From NCBI GenBank assembly GCA_900466005.1, contig UEGQ01000003.1:434001-498000 (forward strand): DNA of 64,000 nucleotides, read 5' to 3'. The notes beneath the pieces were generated by a model. It did no database searches and had not been told where the DNA came from. It saw only the letters and a list, made by a program, of their open reading frames with translations. The position numbers and the translations under genes are program-made. Positions 19,524 through 63,962 of this stretch are shown one piece after another. Numbering within the stretch: the stretch's first letter is position 1; every line of letters starts with the position of its first letter. The DNA comes from Hyphomicrobiales bacterium. Its GTDB lineage: Bacteria > Pseudomonadota > Alphaproteobacteria > Rhizobiales > Rhizobiaceae.

Positions 19524-19933
19524 GACAAATCCTCCGTCTCGATAGGGGCGAAATGCGGGCTTGCCGCTTTTGTTCCTGTCATCGCGGTATTCGCGCGGGT
19601 CAGCATGCCCGCGAAGTGCCCGGTTTCTGCCCGGGCGAAGCCTCGGAAGGATTTCGTTAACCTTCGGGCAACCAATTAACCATAAAGATTGGTGGATACG
19701 TCGGAATGGGATTTCGCCGCTCGTGAATCCCCTCGAGGCATGACGCCAGCCCGTCGTACCGGTCTCGGTCCGGTATGTTTTTTCATTGAAGCAGTTCAGG
19801 GGACGGTCTTCGGTGGGCGCCGGGCGAAAGCCCGCTCTTCCTTGACGTGGCGTGAGTCCGCAGACACTCGAGACATCCCGGGACCATTTCAGTCCGTCCG
19901 GTCGCATGCCGGACATGAACGAGGAATATTGTC
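19524..19933. other. Divergent intergenic region ku2 / icpA
   Basis: A 410-base gap between two leftward/rightward TTG-started genes. It contains the EcfG-like promoter for ku2-ligD (19552-19576) and a GTTAAC palindrome (19656-19661) followed by a locally AT-rich stretch to about 19690. No further gene is supported. The promoter of the chemotaxis operon must lie in the right half but I cannot define it. Confidence 0.5.
19552..19576 (-). promoter_or_regulatory. EcfG/RpoE2-like promoter candidate for ku2-ligD
   Basis: On the minus strand GGAAC (19576-19572), a 16-base spacer and CATT (19555-19552). It matches GGAAC-N16-cgTT at eight of nine positions and is correctly placed about 29 bases before the TTG start. 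Confidence 0.5.
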
Positions 19934-47298: not shown

Positions 47299-47411
47299 CA
47301 GTCCGGTTCAGACGACGTTAAAATCCGTACTGTTTGATGCTGCTCCAGAGACGGATTAATTCAAACGAAAATTAATTGACATGACGTCGTCCGCCTCTGC
47401 CGGTAGGTAAC

Positions 47412-47451
47412 CCGGCATGTCCCTCCAATGTATCTAGTTTCCAAGGGGACA
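47412..47451 (+). promoter_or_regulatory. flaA leader hairpin covering the ribosome site
   Basis: TGTCCCT (47418-47424) pairs with GGGGACA (47445-47451, one G-U), burying the AAGGGG Shine-Dalgarno that lies 8 bases before the ATG. The CCGG-N-ATGTCCC sequence recurs before the other three flagellin genes. Confidence 0.5.
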
Positions 47452-47456
47452 CCTCA

Positions 47457-48677
47457 ATGAGCAGTATTCTTACCAACGGCAGTGCAATGGCTGCGCTGTC
47501 CACTCTCCGTTCCATCTCCGCCAGCCTGGACGACACCCAGTCCCGCATTTCCTCGGGTCTGCGCGTCGGCTCTGCGTCTGACAACGCCGCCTACTGGTCG
47601 ATCGCAACCACCATGCGTTCGGACAACGCCTCGCTGTCGTCTGTCCAGGACGCCCTCGGCCTCGGCGCTGCCAAGGTCGACACGGCCTATTCCGGCATGA
47701 ACGCCGCGATCGACGTCGTCAAGGAAATCAAGGCCAAGCTGACCGCCGCCACCGAAGATGGTGTCGACAAGACCAAGATCCAGGAAGAAATCTCGCAGCT
47801 CCAGGACCAGCTCGGCTCGATTGCCGAAGCGGCTTCCTTCTCGGGCGAGAACTGGCTGCAGGCCAAACTGACTGGCGGCCTTGCTTCCGACACCGACAAG
47901 AGCATCGTCGCTTCCTTCGTTCGTGACGCTGCGGGTGCCGTATCGGTCAAGAAGGTCGACTACACGCTGACCGCTTCGAACGTCCTGTTCGACACCAATG
48001 GCAACACCGGCATTCTCGACCAGACCACCAACATTGCCGGCGACGGCGTCGTCGTCAACGTCAACGACGGCGGCGTAACCACCTCGCACAACCTGAAGTC
48101 CTACACGACGGCTCAGGTCAGCGCTGCCGTCACGGGTGCCGGTGGCGCCTTCGACGCGGGTGGCAGCATTGCTTGGACGGTCGCCGGTGACGGTCTCGGT
48201 GCCGGTGTCGGTTACGTGATGATCGGCTCGGATACGTGGGTTGCCGCGACGGAACAGAGTGCACTTGCCAACGCGACCCAGGAAGTCTTCGCGACCGACG
48301 CGTCGACCTTCGAATGGCAGATCAACACGGCCGATACCGCCGCTTCGACGGCGATGTCGGTTTCGGACTTCACGATCGACAACACCACGACCGCGACCCA
48401 GCTTTCGGGCCTTCTGTCGATGGTCGACACCGCTCTGAAGTCCATGACCAGCGCCGCCTCGCAGCTCGGCTCGCTGAACTCGCGAATCGGCATTCAGGAA
48501 GAGTTCATCTCCAACCTGACCGATTCGATCGACAAGGGTATCGGCCGTCTCGTCGACGCCGACCTGAACGAAGAATCGACCCGCCTGAAGGCGCTGCAGA
48601 CCCAGCAGCAACTCGCCATCCAGTCGCTGTCGATCGCGAACTCTTCGTCGCAGAACGTCCTGTCGTTGTTCCGTTAA
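47457..48677 (+). CDS. flaA: Flagellin FlaA
   Basis: A 406-residue filament subunit. The N-terminal D0/D1 is MSSILTNGSAMAALSTLRSI through SSGLRVGSASDNAAYWSIAT. The variable surface domain is about residues 155-320 and the C-terminal D1/D0 runs to LKALQTQQQLAIQSLSIANS and NVLSLFR. It is named by position as the first of four, as in S. meliloti flaA-flaB-flaD-flaC, where FlaA is the essential principal subunit of the complex filament. Residues about 159-293 are almost identical to FlaD. The gene has its own leader and a strong terminator. Confidence 0.95.
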   Translation: MSSILTNGSAMAALSTLRSISASLDDTQSRISSGLRVGSASDNAAYWSIATTMRSDNASLSSVQDALGLGAAKVDTAYSGMNAAIDVVKEIKAKLTAATEDGVDKTKIQEEISQLQDQLGSIAEAASFSGENWLQAKLTGGLASDTDKSIVASFVRDAAGAVSVKKVDYTLTASNVLFDTNGNTGILDQTTNIAGDGVVVNVNDGGVTTSHNLKSYTTAQVSAAVTGAGGAFDAGGSIAWTVAGDGLGAGVGYVMIGSDTWVAATEQSALANATQEVFATDASTFEWQINTADTAASTAMSVSDFTIDNTTTATQLSGLLSMVDTALKSMTSAASQLGSLNSRIGIQEEFISNLTDSIDKGIGRLVDADLNEESTRLKALQTQQQLAIQSLSIANSSSQNVLSLFR

Positions 48678-48722
48678 TCGGCCGGATGGCAGGGGTTTCC
48701 CTGTATTTTGCAAGAACTTGAG

Positions 48723-48753
48723 CATGCCGCGCCTTCGGGCGCGGCATGTTTTT
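48723..48753 (+). terminator. Terminator after flaA
   Basis: CATGCCGCGCC (48723-48733), TTCG loop, GGCGCGGCATG (48738-48748), then five Ts. An 11-bp perfect stem with a UUCG tetraloop, one of the strongest terminators in the window. Confidence 0.95.
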
Positions 48754-48876
48754 CGTCAACTCGCGTTTAGCAGTTGTTAACCATGTTTAAGCTAGATGGA
48801 AGCATCGCAACGACGGGTTAACACTCCCTAATAACCTGTTAGCAGGCATGATGCTGACCGTCGTTCCCGGCGCGAC

Positions 48877-48913
48877 CGGAATGTCCCTTTCATAGACCGC
48901 CAACCAAGGGGCA
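48877..48913 (+). promoter_or_regulatory. flaB leader hairpin covering the ribosome site
   Basis: CCGGAATGTCCC at 48876-48887. TGTCCCTT (48882-48889) pairs over 8 bp (one G-U) with AAGGGGCA (48906-48913), which contains the Shine-Dalgarno 9 bases before the ATG. Confidence 0.55.
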
Positions 48914-48922
48914 ACTTTCTCA

Positions 48923-50143
48923 ATGACCAGCATTCTTACCAACGTCGCGGCCATGGCCGCCCTCCAGACTCTCCGCTCCATCGACTCCGATATGGAGCAG
49001 ACGCAGGCGCGTGTTTCCTCGGGTCTTCGCGTCGGCGGCGCTTCGGACAACGCTGCCTACTGGTCGATCGCGACCACCATGCGTTCCGACAACATGGCCC
49101 TGTCGGCGGTTCAGGACGCACTCGGTCTCGGCGCCGCCAAGATCGACACGGCCTACTCCGGCATGAACTCGGCCATCGACGTCGTCAAGGAAATCAAGGC
49201 CAAGCTCACTGCCGCCAGCGAAGACGGCGTCGACAAGACCAAGATCCAGGAAGAAATCTCGCAGCTCCAGGATCAGTTGCGCAGTGTTGCCGAGGCCGCG
49301 TCCTTCTCGGGCGAGAATTGGCTGCAGGCGAAGCTTACGGGCGCCTTGTCGTCTGACATCAACAAGAGCGTCGTCGCTTCCTTTGTCCGCGATTCCTCGG
49401 GCGCCGTATCGGTCAAGAAGGTCGACTACACGCTCGACAGCACCAACGTGCTCTTCGACACCAACGGCAACACCGGCATCCTCGACCAGACCACCAACAT
49501 CAACGGCGACGGCGTGGTCGTTAACGTGAACATCGCTGGTGTCACCGGATCCTACAACGTCATCAAGTATACGACGGCTCAGGTCAGTACGGCCGTTACA
49601 GGTGCGGGCGGCGCTTTCGACGTCGGTGGCGACATCGCATGGACTGTCGCCGGCGACGGCGCCGGTGCCGGCGTGGGCTTCGTCAAGATCGGTGACGATA
49701 CCTGGGTTGCCGCGACGGAACAGGACGCAGCTGCCAACTCCACGCAGGAAGTCTTCGCGACCGATGCGTCGACCTTCGAGTGGCAGATCGACACCACCGC
49801 TGCCGCTGCTTCCACCGCGATGTCGGTCGATACCTTCGCCATCGATAACACCACGACGAGCACCCAAATCGCAGGCCTGCTGTCCATGGTCGACACTGCT
49901 CTCGAAACCATGACCAGCGCTGCTGCCCAGCTCGGCTCGATCGGTATGCGCATCGACATGCAGCAGGAATTTGTTGCCAGCCTGACGGACTCCATCGACA
50001 AAGGTGTCGGTCGTCTCGTCGATGCCGATATGAACGAGGAATCGACCCGCCTGAAGGCACTGCAGACCCAGCAGCAGCTCGCGGTCCAGTCGCTGTCGAT
50101 CGCGAATACGGCGTCGCAGAACATCCTGACCCTCTTCAAGTAA
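48923..50143 (+). CDS. flaB: Flagellin FlaB
   Basis: A 406-residue secondary flagellin with the standard N-terminus MTSILTNVAAMAALQTLRSI and C-terminus KALQTQQQLAVQSLSIANT and NILTLFK. The central domain has the same length as FlaA and FlaD but many substitutions (for example VNVNIAGVTGSYNVIKYTT). It shares its first and last thirds with FlaD, including GSIGMRIDMQQEFVASLTDS. Its own leader and terminator suggest monocistronic transcription. In S. meliloti secondary flagellins combine with FlaA to give rigid complex filaments. Confidence 0.95.
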   Translation: MTSILTNVAAMAALQTLRSIDSDMEQTQARVSSGLRVGGASDNAAYWSIATTMRSDNMALSAVQDALGLGAAKIDTAYSGMNSAIDVVKEIKAKLTAASEDGVDKTKIQEEISQLQDQLRSVAEAASFSGENWLQAKLTGALSSDINKSVVASFVRDSSGAVSVKKVDYTLDSTNVLFDTNGNTGILDQTTNINGDGVVVNVNIAGVTGSYNVIKYTTAQVSTAVTGAGGAFDVGGDIAWTVAGDGAGAGVGFVKIGDDTWVAATEQDAAANSTQEVFATDASTFEWQIDTTAAAASTAMSVDTFAIDNTTTSTQIAGLLSMVDTALETMTSAAAQLGSIGMRIDMQQEFVASLTDSIDKGVGRLVDADMNEESTRLKALQTQQQLAVQSLSIANTASQNILTLFK

Positions 50144-50187
50144 GAGCGTCTGGGCCGGCGCAGTGCCGCCTGCCTACCGACACAAAG

Positions 50188-50218
50188 AAGGCCGTGTTCG
50201 GAAGAGCGCGGCCTTTTT
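50188..50218 (+). terminator. Terminator after flaB
   Basis: AAGGCCG (50188-50194) pairs with CGGCCTT (50209-50215) followed by a run of Ts, giving a hairpin with a 14-nt loop region that can extend. Confidence 0.85.
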
Positions 50219-50228
50219 GGTTTTCATA

Positions 50229-50243
50229 TTAACGATCTGTCAA
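50229..50243. promoter_or_regulatory. CtrA-like box upstream of flaD
   Basis: TTAA-CGATCTG-TCAA, seven of eight positions of TTAA-N7-TTAA, just after the flaB terminator and 220 bases before the flaD ATG. The CGAT spacer start matches the flaA and flaC boxes. Confidence 0.4.
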
Positions 50244-50415
50244 TATAGATTAACCAAGTATTATGAAGTATCGTGAGTATTTTACTTGTATTCTTGCCCT
50301 GCCTTCACCTCCCGTTAACTACGTCCGCGTAGCCTACAACCATCGAACGGGAGGTTGACCGCAGTTGCTGCGATCTCGACACGCATGATGCAAAAGACCC
50401 GTTCCCGGTGGATTT

Positions 50416-50454
50416 CCGGAATGTCCCTGTCAAATTCCTAGTCGCCAAGGGGCA
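50416..50454 (+). promoter_or_regulatory. flaD leader hairpin covering the ribosome site
   Basis: CCGGAATGTCCCT at 50416-50428. TGTCCCT (50422-50428) pairs over 7 bp with AGGGGCA (50448-50454), which includes the Shine-Dalgarno 8 bases before the ATG. Confidence 0.55.
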
Positions 50455-50462
50455 CAACTTAA

Positions 50463-51683
50463 ATGACCAGCATTCTGACCAACGTCGCGGCGATGGCCGC
50501 ACTTTCGACCCTTCGCTCCATCGAGTCCGGTCTCGAACAGACCCAGGCGGCCGTGTCTTCGGGCCTGCGCGTGGGTTCCGCTTCGGACAACGCTGCCTAC
50601 TGGTCGATTGCGACCACCATGCGTTCCGACAACATGGCCCTGTCGGCCGTAGAAGATGCCCTCGGCCTCGGCGCTGCCAAGGTCGACACGGCCTATTCCG
50701 GCATGAACTCGGCGATCGAAGTCGTCAAGGAAATCAAGGCCAAGCTGACTGCCGCTACCGAAGACGGCGTCGACAAGACCAAGATCCAGGAAGAGATCAC
50801 CCAGCTCCAGGATCAGCTGACCTCGATTGCTGAAGCGGCTTCCTTCTCGGGTGAGAACTGGCTGCAGGCGAAGCTTACCGGCGGCCTGGCTTCCGACATC
50901 AACAAGAGCGTTGTCGCGTCCTTCGTCCGCGACTCCTCGGGTGCCGTATCGGTCAAGAAGGTCGACTATACGCTGACCGCTTCGAACGTCCTGTTCGACA
51001 CCAACGGCAACACCGGTATTCTCGACCAGACCACCAACATTGCCGGTGACGGCGTTGTCGTCAACGTCAACGACGGCGGCGTAACCACCTCGCACAACCT
51101 GAATTCCTACACGACGGCGCAGGTCAGCGCGGCCGTCACGGGTGCGGGCGGTGCCTTCGACGCCGGCGGCAGCATCGCGTGGACGGTCGCCGGTGACGGT
51201 CTCGGTGCCGGTGTCGGTTACGTGATGATCGGCTCGGATACGTGGGTTGCCGCGACGGAACAGAGTGCACTTGCCAACGCGACCCAGGAAGTTTTCGCGA
51301 CCGACGCGTCGACCTTCGAATGGCAGATCAACACGGCCGACGTTGCTGCTTCGACGGCCATGTCGGTAGACAGCTTCACGATCACCAACACCACGACCAA
51401 GACCGAGCTCGCCGGCCTTCTGTCGATGGTCGACACTGCTCTGAAGTCGATGACCAGTGCCGCTGCCCAGCTAGGCTCGATCGGCATGCGCATCGACATG
51501 CAGCAGGAATTCGTCGCCAGCCTGACGGACTCCATCGACAAGGGTGTTGGTCGTCTCGTTGATGCCGACCTGAACGAGGAATCGACCCGCTTGAAGGCAC
51601 TGCAGACCCAGCAGCAGCTCGCCGTTCAGTCGCTGTCGATCGCCAACTCGTCGTCGCAGAACATCCTGACCCTCTTCCGCTAA
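50463..51683 (+). CDS. flaD: Flagellin FlaD (mosaic of FlaA- and FlaB-like parts)
   Basis: A 406-residue secondary flagellin. The N-terminus MTSILTNVAAMAALSTLRSI and the C-terminal GSIGMRIDMQQEFVASLTDS and QQQLAVQSLSIANS follow FlaB. Residues about 159-293 (GAVSVKKVDYTLTASNVLF to WQINTAD) are identical to FlaA except one K/N difference, and the DNA there is nearly identical as well. This points to gene conversion within the cluster. It has its own conserved leader hairpin and a perfect terminator. Confidence 0.94.
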   Translation: MTSILTNVAAMAALSTLRSIESGLEQTQAAVSSGLRVGSASDNAAYWSIATTMRSDNMALSAVEDALGLGAAKVDTAYSGMNSAIEVVKEIKAKLTAATEDGVDKTKIQEEITQLQDQLTSIAEAASFSGENWLQAKLTGGLASDINKSVVASFVRDSSGAVSVKKVDYTLTASNVLFDTNGNTGILDQTTNIAGDGVVVNVNDGGVTTSHNLNSYTTAQVSAAVTGAGGAFDAGGSIAWTVAGDGLGAGVGYVMIGSDTWVAATEQSALANATQEVFATDASTFEWQINTADVAASTAMSVDSFTITNTTTKTELAGLLSMVDTALKSMTSAAAQLGSIGMRIDMQQEFVASLTDSIDKGVGRLVDADLNEESTRLKALQTQQQLAVQSLSIANSSSQNILTLFR

Positions 51684-51711
51684 TCGCGGAAAGGATTGGC
51701 CGAACAGACTG

Positions 51712-51738
51712 GCCGCGCCCCTCGGGGCGCGGCTTTTT
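51712..51738 (+). terminator. Terminator after flaD
   Basis: GCCGCGCCCC (51712-51721) and GGGGCGCGGC (51724-51733) form a perfect 10-bp inverted repeat with a minimal loop, followed by five Ts. Confidence 0.93.
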
Positions 51739-51814
51739 GCGTTTCGAGCTTGCGTGAGGCTTGCCGCCTTTTCGTTTTCACGGTCCTTCGGCTCTACAAC
51801 CCTTGCTAATCACG

Positions 51815-51829
51815 TTAAGTCTTTGTTAA
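51815..51829. promoter_or_regulatory. Perfect CtrA-type box 1 upstream of flaC
   Basis: TTAA-GTCTTTG-TTAA, a full match to the CtrA consensus TTAA-N7-TTAA, 127 bases before the flaC ATG. Confidence 0.55.
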
Positions 51830-51838
51830 ATGTCTCTG

Positions 51839-51854
51839 TTAACGATTTGTTAAC
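51839..51854. promoter_or_regulatory. Perfect CtrA-type box 2 upstream of flaC
   Basis: TTAA-CGATTTG-TTAAC, a full match including the trailing C, 9 bases after box 1. Similar to the weaker boxes before flaA and flaD. Confidence 0.55.
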
Positions 51855-51921
51855 AGGTGACGGGGCGGTTCCGGGTCAGGTGCCGCCAGCATGATGCCCG
51901 TCTGTCGCCGCCGGCTTGGCG

Positions 51922-51949
51922 CCGGATGTCCCATGATGCGAACAGGGCA
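51922..51949 (+). promoter_or_regulatory. flaC leader hairpin, shorter version
   Basis: CCGGATGTCCC (51922-51932). TG-CCC can pair with GGGCA (51945-51949) with one bulged U, overlapping the GGGCA ribosome site 6 bases before the ATG. Weaker than in the other three flagellin leaders. Confidence 0.35.
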
Positions 51950-51955
51950 CCCTCG

Positions 51956-52921
51956 ATGACCAGTATTCTGACCAATGCTGCCGCTATGGCGGCACTTCAG
52001 ACTCTCCGCGCGATCGACAACAACATGGAGACCACGCAGCGCCGTGTGTCCTCCGGTTATCGCGTGGAAACGGCTGCCGACAATGCCGCCTACTGGTCCA
52101 TCGCCACGACGATGCGGTCGGATAATTCCTCGCTCTCGACGGTATCGGACGCGCTCGGGCTCGGGGCGGCGACGGTGGATACCGCCTACACGGCGCTCGA
52201 CAACGTCATCCACGTCATGAGCGACATCAAGGCGAAGCTCGTTGCGGCCAGGGAGCCCGGCGTCGACAAGACCAAGATCAATGCCGAGATGACGGAGCTC
52301 AAGAACCAGCTCGTCTCCACCACCCAGTCCGCATCCTTCTCCGGCCAGAACTGGTTGTACAATACGAATTCCGCGGCACTTGGCACCAAGCAGGTCGTCT
52401 CCTCCTTCGTTCGTGCGGCGGACGGAACGGTTCAGGTGACCACGCTTGACTTCGACACCAGCCAGTCGGTGCTGATCGATACCGTCGACGCGGCGCGCGG
52501 CCTCCTGACCAAGGATATCGACGCCGATGCCTTGATGGCGAGCCCGAGTGGAACGGCGCGCAACTACTATCTTCTCGATGTCGGTGCGACGACGCCGGCC
52601 ACCGGCACGGAAATCAAGATCGACGGCACCACCACGGATGCAGTCATGGACGACATGATCAGCGTCGTCTCGGACCTGCTCGAGCAGCTGACCAATTCAG
52701 CATCTACGCTCGGCGCAATCACCAAGCGCATCGACATGCAGGAGCAGTTCGTCTCCAACCTGATGGACGTGATCGACAAGGGGGTCGGACGCCTGGTCGA
52801 TGCCGACATGAACGAGGAGTCGACGCGGCTCAAGGCGCTGCAGACGCAGCAGCAGCTCGGCATTCAGGCGCTTTCGATCGCCAACACCAACGCCGAGAAC
52901 ATCCTGACCCTCTTCAAGTGA
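51956..52921 (+). CDS. flaC: Flagellin FlaC (short form)
   Basis: A 321-residue flagellin, about 85 residues shorter than its three neighbours because the central surface domain is reduced and unrelated in sequence. N-terminal MTSILTNAAAMAALQTLRAI and C-terminal ALQTQQQLGIQALSIANTNA and NILTLFK are conserved. ATG at 51956 is chosen by alignment with the other flagellins. In S. meliloti FlaC is likewise the shortest and a minor component. It has two perfect CtrA-type boxes upstream, and no clear terminator follows it. Confidence 0.94.
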   Translation: MTSILTNAAAMAALQTLRAIDNNMETTQRRVSSGYRVETAADNAAYWSIATTMRSDNSSLSTVSDALGLGAATVDTAYTALDNVIHVMSDIKAKLVAAREPGVDKTKINAEMTELKNQLVSTTQSASFSGQNWLYNTNSAALGTKQVVSSFVRAADGTVQVTTLDFDTSQSVLIDTVDAARGLLTKDIDADALMASPSGTARNYYLLDVGATTPATGTEIKIDGTTTDAVMDDMISVVSDLLEQLTNSASTLGAITKRIDMQEQFVSNLMDVIDKGVGRLVDADMNEESTRLKALQTQQQLGIQALSIANTNAENILTLFK

Positions 52922-63168: not shown

Positions 63169-63516
63169 ATGTATCAGTTCACATATGCCGAGATCATGGA
63201 AGATGACGTCGCGAACGCCAAGGACCGTGAACGGCAGGCGCTGTCGCGATCGATCGAGTTGCTCGAGAAGGCACGCGATGACGAAGAGTATTCCCGCAAC
63301 GCCATCGAGGCACTCTTCTATACCCGCCGGGTCTGGATCCGCCTCATAGAGGACTTGAAGCAGCCCGAGAACGAGCTCGGAGCGGAGCTGCGCGCCAACC
63401 TGATTTCCATAGCCATCTGGATCTTGAAGGAATGTGATCGGATCAGGAAGCGCGAGTCCAACAATTTCCAGAGCGTAATCGACGTGACAACCATCATCAG
63501 GGATGGACTGAAATGA
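63169..63516 (+). CDS. flaF: Flagellar biosynthesis regulator FlaF
   Basis: A 115-residue soluble helical protein starting [20 protein letters not shown]. In Caulobacter FlaF is needed for flagellin production and secretion, and with FlbT it forms a flagellin-specific post-transcriptional and export-chaperone system. It carries the conserved [16 protein letters not shown] and [15 protein letters not shown] segments. It overlaps flbT by 4 bases, so both are made together. Confidence 0.94.
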
Positions 63517-63962
63517 AAAGTACACTGCGCATCTCTCTCAAATCCGGGGAACGCATCTTCATCAACGGCGCAGTGCTGCGTGTCGACCGCAAGGTCGCGC
63601 TGGAGTTCCTCAACGACGTTACCTTCCTGCTCGAAAATCACGTCCTGCAGCCGGAAGACGCCACAACTCCGCTTCGGCAGCTCTACTTCATCGCACAGAT
63701 GATGCTGATCAACCCGGAGGGCCGCGAACAATCGATGGCCATGTTCCGCAAGTCGATCACCATGCTGCTCGCCTGCTTCCAGAACGACGAGGTTCTGGCC
63801 GAACTCAAGCGGGTCGACGGCATGGTTACCTCCGGCCGAGCCTTCGATGCCCTGAAGGCGATTCGCGGCCTCTATCCGATCGAGGATCGCATCCTCAACA
63901 ACCAGGAGATCGCGCCGGCGACGGTGGAGCAGATTAGCAAGGAGATGGCACCATGGCGGTAA
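63513..63962 (+). CDS. flbT: Flagellin translational regulator FlbT
   Basis: A 149-residue cytoplasmic protein. In Caulobacter FlbT binds the 5' leader of flagellin mRNA and limits its translation until the hook is finished; in other species it can act positively. Visible are [40 protein letters not shown] and [20 protein letters not shown]. Its likely targets are the hairpin leaders of flaA, flaB, flaD and flaC in this window. It overlaps flgD by 10 bases. Confidence 0.95.

Follow-up and report, generated by a model that had tools for sequence, protein, structure and literature searches.

The flagellin locus and its two-hairpin leaders

The DNA analysed here is a stretch of 64,000 nucleotides (nt) from a Hyphomicrobiales bacterium (assembly GCA_900466005.1, contig UEGQ01000003.1, positions 434,001 to 498,000), hereafter the window. 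It carries four flagellin genes in tandem, fla1 to fla4, each with the Pfam domains Flagellin_N and Flagellin_C, and about 10 kb beyond them flaF and flbT (Table 1). The subject is the messenger RNA (mRNA) leader that precedes each flagellin gene, which consists of two abutting hairpins, P1 and then P2, the second of which includes the Shine-Dalgarno (SD) sequence. A preliminary description of this locus had reported a motif, CCGG-(N)-ATGTCCC, shortly before each flagellin start, and it is present in all four leaders: without mismatch at 47412, 48876 and 50416, and in fla4 at 51922 as CCGG-ATGTCCC, with the N missing. The A of ATGTCCC lies 40, 42, 42 and 30 nt from the start codon in fla1, fla2, fla3 and fla4, respectively. 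With one mismatch allowed the window holds seven matches against 1.8 expected by chance, and none of 100 shuffles reaches seven. Across both strands of the 5.0 Mb genome the pattern ATGTCCC-N5-30-AAGGGG occurs five times, three of these being flagellin leaders of this cluster, and its reversed control is absent.

Table 1. Flagellin genes, leader hairpins, upstream boxes and the flaF and flbT genes in the window (positions are those of the window; bp, base pairs)
Feature	Position	Strand	Description	Basis
fla1	47457..48677	+	flagellin; flaA in the preliminary description	PF00669 + PF00700
fla2	48923..50143	+	flagellin; flaB in the preliminary description	Pfam flagellin domains
fla3	50463..51683	+	flagellin; flaD in the preliminary description	Pfam flagellin domains
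fla4	51956..52921	+	flagellin; flaC in the preliminary description	Pfam flagellin domains
fla1 P1	47398..47417	+	TGCCGG / CCGGCA	predicted folds, pairing, R1 match
fla1 P2	47418..47451	+	TGTCCCT (47418-47424) / GGGGACA (47445-47451, SD), 7 bp	R1 42.8 bits
fla2 P1	48867..48879	+	CCGG / CCGG	predicted folds, pairing, R1 match
fla2 P2	48882..48913	+	TGTCCCTT (48882-48889) / AAGGGGCA (48906-48913, SD), 8 bp	R1 33.4 bits
fla3 P1	50405..50419	+	CCGG / CCGG	predicted folds, pairing, R1 match
fla3 P2	50422..50454	+	TGTCCCT (50422-50428) / AGGGGCA (50448-50454, SD), 7 bp	R1 41.3 bits
fla4 P1	51911..51925	+	CCGGC / GCCGG	pairing
fla4 P2, weak	51926..51949	+	TGTCC (in ATGTCCC, 51926-51932) / GGGCA (51945-51949)	pairing; not among R1 matches
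fla1 box	47378..47386	+	GACATGACG, diverged copy	sequence
fla2 box	48845..48854	+	GGCATGATGC	box-to-P1 spacing analysis
fla3 box	50383..50391	+	GCATGATGC	box-to-P1 spacing analysis
fla4 box	51888..51897	+	AGCATGATGC	box-to-P1 spacing analysis
flaF	63169..63516	+	candidate partner; flagellin chaperone per literature	PF07309, E 2.6e-33
flbT	63513..63962	+	candidate trans-acting regulator of the leader	PF07378, E 3.4e-43

The CCGG of the motif is the 3' arm of P1, whose 5' arm, 5-8 nt before it, had been overlooked. In P2 the AUGUCCC(U) strand is paired with the SD sequence, TGTCCC(T)(T) facing GGGGACA or (A)AGGGGCA, and the gap between the two hairpins is 0-2 nt in the window and 0-3 nt in relatives. 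The P2 lengths given earlier for fla1, fla2 and fla3 stand, whereas fla4 has five contiguous pairs including one U-G, and the bulged version proposed for it is an alternative. The third pair does differ as described, U-A in fla1 and U-G in fla2 and fla3, but this is a one-sided wobble change and by itself weak evidence; true double changes come from relatives. The loops had been said to differ in sequence and length. Among 145 leaders of relatives scored, 30 loops are GTATYTCGT-like, 24 of these with TGTCCC/GGGACA arms, and 68 fit a loose (G/C)CCA pattern, 55 of these with AGGGGCA in the SD arm; because they fall into such sequence types, some constraint may act on the P2 loops, against the earlier remark.

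A near-palindromic box, GGCATGATGCC (GGCATGANGCC), is found upstream of P1 at near-fixed spacing. An exact match to GCAT[GC]ANG lies 45-115 nt ahead of the start codon in 206 of 234 leaders, a set to which genomes of the order contributed 35, as opposed to 118 of 3080 random windows; fla1 is among the 28 leaders with none. The box is a candidate promoter element of late flagellar genes, and the mRNA start would therefore lie just before P1. Literature searches found no mapped transcription start for these leaders.

Distribution of the element

Relatives were collected by a scan of named genome contigs with fla1, and the best 80 of at least 590 gave 76 distinct loci, nearly all of them Hyphomicrobiales by title and one titled Rhodobacteraceae. 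Searched with a profile of the four window flagellins, the loci and the window together yielded 199 flagellin reading frames, two more being dropped as they had no start codon. A covariance model of P1 and P2, hereafter R1, was built from 32 seed leaders chosen for showing the motif (ten of 42 were left out), and gave 149 matches at E <= 1 over the 77 sources (76 loci and the window). Nearly all of the plus-strand matches (140 of 146) end at most 25 nt before a flagellin start, and R1 covers 140 of the 199 flagellin leaders, including the 32 seeds, which match by construction.

The same specificity is seen in genomes of the order picked regardless of flagellin, of which 23 of 150 have an R1 match at E <= 0.01. 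There were 39 such order-level matches outside the window's own genome; 28 loci were checked, and 27 of them lie directly before a flagellin start, the exception being L116. Within the window's genus, R1 matches 58 of 58 genomes at E <= 0.2, and all 29 loci fetched precede a flagellin gene (28 by pattern, L184 by eye). In the window's own genome fla1, fla3 and fla2 score best; the match ranked fourth, C27:89443, does not precede a flagellin gene, and the fifth precedes chemotaxis genes in the window. The leader of fla4 is not among the R1 matches listed for the own genome to E = 10 (150 of 1133 first-look candidates scored) or for the window to E = 1.

The preliminary description spoke of all four flagellin mRNAs, but more flagellin-like genes exist: there are six Flagellin_N matches in the genome, one of them a diverged gene on another contig. 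This flagellin-like gene (C42:129206, L094), away from the cluster, has a degraded GCCGG/CCGGC and a CTGTCCG before its start and no clear element.

Covariation of the paired arms

In an alignment of 136 distinct R1 matches, fitted to the structure, P2 is 93.8% paired and P1 82.0%, and over the two helices 40 cells are changed on both sides against 16.0 in shuffles, none of 500 of which reaches 40. Taken over both helices, the percentage paired, the double-change pairs and cells and the covariation score lie above every one of the 500 shuffles and every slide of the partner strands; for further pair types the value was reached by two of 500 shuffles. On a tree of 139 flagellin N-termini (ten of the 149 rows, with no flagellin start behind them or on the other strand, were dropped), P2 has 12 same-branch double changes where 1.47 are expected, eight of them from one standard pair to another, and P1 has 12 where 3.93 are expected, five of them pair-to-pair. 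Both helices in true register thus total 24 against 5.4 expected; partners slid by -1 give 12 against 3.3, and slides of -3, -2, +1, +2 and +3 give 0-1.

The changes can also be read directly. P2 appears as TGTCCC/GGGACA, TGTCCTC/GGGGACA, TGTTCCT/GGGAACA, TGCCCTT/AGGGGCA and ATGTCCCT/AGGGATAT, and is kept with other letters in far lineages, as ATGTTCC/GGAACAT in Bosea, TGTCTTTTC/GGAAAGACG in L176 and ACTCA/TGAGT in L170; P1 appears as ACCGG/CCGGT, TCCCGG/CCGGGA, GTCGG/CCGAC and ATCGG/CCGAT. Lack of covariation in homologous leaders had been named as a ground for rejecting the hairpin, but compensatory changes that preserve pairing are found both among the distinct sequences and on the tree, an arm-swap test (below) being only modestly positive.

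Predicted folds and access to the Shine-Dalgarno sequence

Minimum-energy folds were computed for 60, 75 and 90 nt of leader with six coding nt. P1 and P2 are present in all three folds for fla2 and fla3, whereas fla1 has both at 60 and at 90 nt of leader but not at 75. When 30 coding nt are included, P2 of fla1 is retained and competing folds appear in fla2 and fla3. A helix taking in the SD sequence is clear in fla1 to fla3, and weak in fla4. The cost of opening the SD over four contexts is 6.6-7.9 kcal/mol for fla1, 5.3-7.8 for fla2, 3.5-3.9 for fla3 and 4.3-6.1 for fla4. Across relatives, the median SD opening energy of the 199 flagellin leaders is 6.57 kcal/mol, compared with 3.37 for 458 other long frames of the same loci (p = 2e-27), and the SD unpaired probability is 0.19 compared with 0.34; the comparison frames were picked mechanically (at least 300 codons, the start with the best SD) and some are not real genes.

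Masking of the SD by a conserved RNA structure, the central claim of the preliminary description, is well supported by the covariation, by the SD opening cost and by the flagellin specificity seen in genomes not chosen for their flagellins. The conserved RNA element is real, is absent from Rfam 15 as far as scanned (see below), and is of a known mechanistic kind. It is likely that these flagellin leaders carry a two-hairpin cis-regulatory RNA that masks the SD and acts as a default brake on translation. P1, a stem of the CCGG type, would probably lie near the mRNA 5' end, with P2 following after 0-3 nt, and the pairing of the anti-SD strand (AUGUCCC and its variants) with the flagellin SD would by default keep the 30S subunit off. 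The element would thus lower translation in the cell, flagellin synthesis remaining low until P2 is opened, presumably by a trans-acting factor. This factor may be FlbT, together with FlaF, which would couple synthesis of the filament protein to flagellar assembly.

Leaders without P2

Several observations weigh against the brake as an explanation. R1 finds no match in 59 of the 199 flagellin leaders. At loci with several flagellins, the last gene in the fetched stretch has a match in 16 of 48 cases and the others in 111 of 122, and flagellins found alone at a locus have one in 13 of 29. Such last genes, which usually have no P1 and P2 match, include those of the loci L014, L018, L019 and L024 as well as fla4, whose P2 is weak and is absent from all three minimum-energy folds (60, 75 and 90 nt of leader). 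Three Mesorhizobium loci (L075, L078 and L079) keep P1 and have TGTCAAAAAAA in the place of P2, and the same is seen in leaders from G206 and G238, two genomes belonging to the window's family. The absence of P2 from one of the three fla1 folds indicates that the folds depend on context. Opening of the fla3 SD is cheap by the figures above, and its AGG bases are 48-66% unpaired in the short context and 82-98% in the three longer ones.

Reservations of the same kind apply to the covariation, as the pair counts come from an alignment fitted to the structure. With a cruder parser, the true arm pairings exceed swapped arms only modestly (own score 14.14; 2000 permutations with a mean of 13.46, a standard deviation of 0.19 and a best score of 14.14), and in a swap test restricted to the 84 leaders that do not have TGTCCC the own score of 10.35 is below the swapped score of 10.81; by eye, many of these 84 are misparsed or have lost P2.

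Because the Mesorhizobium loci and the two family genomes keep P1 without P2, some genes and lineages do without P2. In the three Mesorhizobium loci and in L171 and L174, from two genomes of the window's family, P1 is lengthened to eight pairs, CATACCGG/CCGGTATG, a run of A replaces the anti-SD strand, and P2 seems lost; L049, another locus named Mesorhizobium, retains TGTCCC/GGGGCA. The last flagellin of a cluster may be made outside the control.

Relation to known leader RNAs

Scanned against Rfam 15 at the gathering score, neither the window nor the loci of six relatives gave a match other than transfer RNA (tRNA). A related family is RF01736, the flg-Rhizobiales RNA motif listed in PMC2864571, by its name a leader motif predicted by computation for flagellar genes of this order. 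In this it is like the present element, but it spans 141 positions against 54. Membership of the window in this family was rejected, as it gave no match at the gathering score and did not appear when 47300-52000 was searched up to E 10; it was also not found in the own genome at E 0.001, a search in which no control genome matched either. An RNA thermometer of the ROSE or fourU type was likewise rejected, the arms being rich in CCC/GGG and Rfam giving only tRNA in the window and in the six relatives' loci.

The proposed mechanism is that of SD-sequestering leaders in general, such as riboswitch expression platforms and ribosomal protein leaders, in which an upstream strand pairs with the SD and compensatory changes occur. 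Unlike these, the present element has no visible ligand-binding aptamer, its P1 abuts the sequestering helix, and it is repeated before several paralogous flagellins within a genome. The CsrA-FliW system of Bacillus and Campylobacter is similar in that an assembly-linked protein acts on a flagellin leader, and PMC4894983 suggests FlaF and FlbT as an analogous system. The predicted structure of FlbT has an N-terminal strand domain and a C-terminal helical bundle. FlbT has no significant profile similarity to CsrA (hhalign, P 0.15-0.2), and CsrA is not among the structural matches listed for the FlbT N-terminal model, a result that excludes nothing. For Caulobacter crescentus fljK and Brucella fliC, reviews describe post-transcriptional control of flagellin mRNA through the 5' untranslated region in systems that also encode FlbT and FlaF. 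R1 finds nothing convincing in 40 flagellin leaders drawn from 27 further genomes of the class, none of them named as Caulobacter. Stem-loops have reportedly been proposed for the Caulobacter flagellin leader.

What opens or closes the leader?

A message closed by default fits a positive trans-acting factor, for which FlbT is the natural candidate. That FlbT, with FlaF, is the specific ligand of P1 and P2, either opening P2 (as in Brucella) or clamping it shut (as in Caulobacter), is a proposal whose chances we regard as even, and the same balance applies to FlbT as the trans-acting factor of the element generally. The elements lie in flagellin mRNA leaders of a genome with FlbT, as is expected of FlbT-regulated leaders; flaF and flbT are encoded downstream in the same window, and all 22 genomes of the order in which a checked element adjoins a flagellin gene encode FlbT, as do 109 of the 150 overall, a co-occurrence that is confounded inside the order with having flagella. 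According to published work, the target of FlbT in Caulobacter is the 5' untranslated region of flagellin mRNA, and Brucella needs FlbT to make flagellin (PMC4347634, PMC3930126, PMC8781033). Its role is given as that of an activator in Brucella and of a repressor in Caulobacter (PMC4347634, PMC9812332), in the latter with the flagellin FljJ as co-repressor (PMC7591256, PMC9812332, PMC3930126). Like flaF, flbT was hit in an Agrobacterium screen for motility genes (PMC9812332); a review lists the FlbT mechanism as unresolved (PMC4347634). Against a dedicated ligand stands the far wider distribution of FlbT, which is encoded by 50 of 144 genomes of the class, where only the window's own genome has an R1 match (E <= 0.01, stricter filters). 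With filters off, the 40 leaders from 27 genomes outside the order sample (24 with FlbT) gave no R1 match better than E 0.08, although homologous folds could escape R1. FlbT is much more widespread than the element, and any action of FlbT on flagellin leaders elsewhere would therefore require recognition of something else there. The earlier nomination of FlbT is attractive and plausible, its support from these genomes being one of presence only, and the opposite roles described in Brucella and Caulobacter make the suggested switch tied to hook completion no more than a possibility. A fuller scheme, speculative and rather doubtful as a whole, would make the leader a new Hyphomicrobiales cis-RNA family with P1 as docking site and P2 as SD lock, and FlbT an RNA-opening activator sensing flagellin through a FliS-like helical domain; the sign of FlbT action, repressing in Caulobacter and activating in rhizobia, would be set by the leader RNA and not by the protein, and the unlocked last flagellin of a cluster would be what FlbT reads.

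Could the structure serve another purpose? It might mainly protect or stabilise the mRNA, with P1 as a 5'-end hairpin and P2 as a barrier, overlap with the SD being incidental and ribosomes melting P2. P1 would sit near the 5' end, at near-fixed spacing behind the box, and persists where P2 is lost (L075, L078, L079); flagellin is commonly a very abundant protein, which is odd for a message that is off by default. We consider this unlikely, since the covarying partner in P2 is the SD-proximal sequence, which tracks changes of the upstream strand, and the SD opening cost exceeds that of other frames. A DNA element, with CCGG-N-ATGTCCC as a promoter or activator site of class III genes and complementarity to the SD as a by-product, is already disfavoured and very improbable: same-branch double changes in the ATGTCCC and SD strands are not expected of a DNA site and the two P1 arms also covary, even though GGCATGATGCC is a strongly conserved near-palindrome and the box and a P1-like sequence also precede chemotaxis genes (19737-19800). 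Regulation by translation of a leader peptide from a short upstream open reading frame is hardly credible. An ATG does open the element in 137 of 157 parsed leaders, and short frames exist in fla1 to fla3, but these ATGs fall in all three frames relative to the flagellin start (54/43/40), only 41 of the 137 stop before that start, and the ATG is missing in variants such as CCTGTCCC and ATTGTCCC.

For the question of how these bacteria match flagellin synthesis to assembly of the flagellum, a covarying SD lock shared by paralogous flagellins and by much of the order provides a concrete RNA for tests with FlbT, FlaF and flagellin, for which the natural compensatory variants are usable as ready-made mutants.

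Related elements elsewhere

Other FlbT-bearing genomes of the class have GGCAAAAYGCC hairpins in the flagellin leaders L130, L131, L137 and L161, and CCAGAAYGGAG just before the flagellin start in L130, L131, L142, L156 and L161; these are perhaps another leader type. Within the window, a copy of the upstream box, GGCATGACGCC, is accompanied at 19737-19800 by a P1-like hairpin, TACCGG/CCGGTA, and by ATGTTTTTTC...AGGGGACGG (R1 21.5 bits). About 140 nt further on comes the TTG start (19934) of a chemoreceptor-like gene, presumably icpA, ahead of chemotaxis genes. Another late motility message may share part of the flagellin leader.

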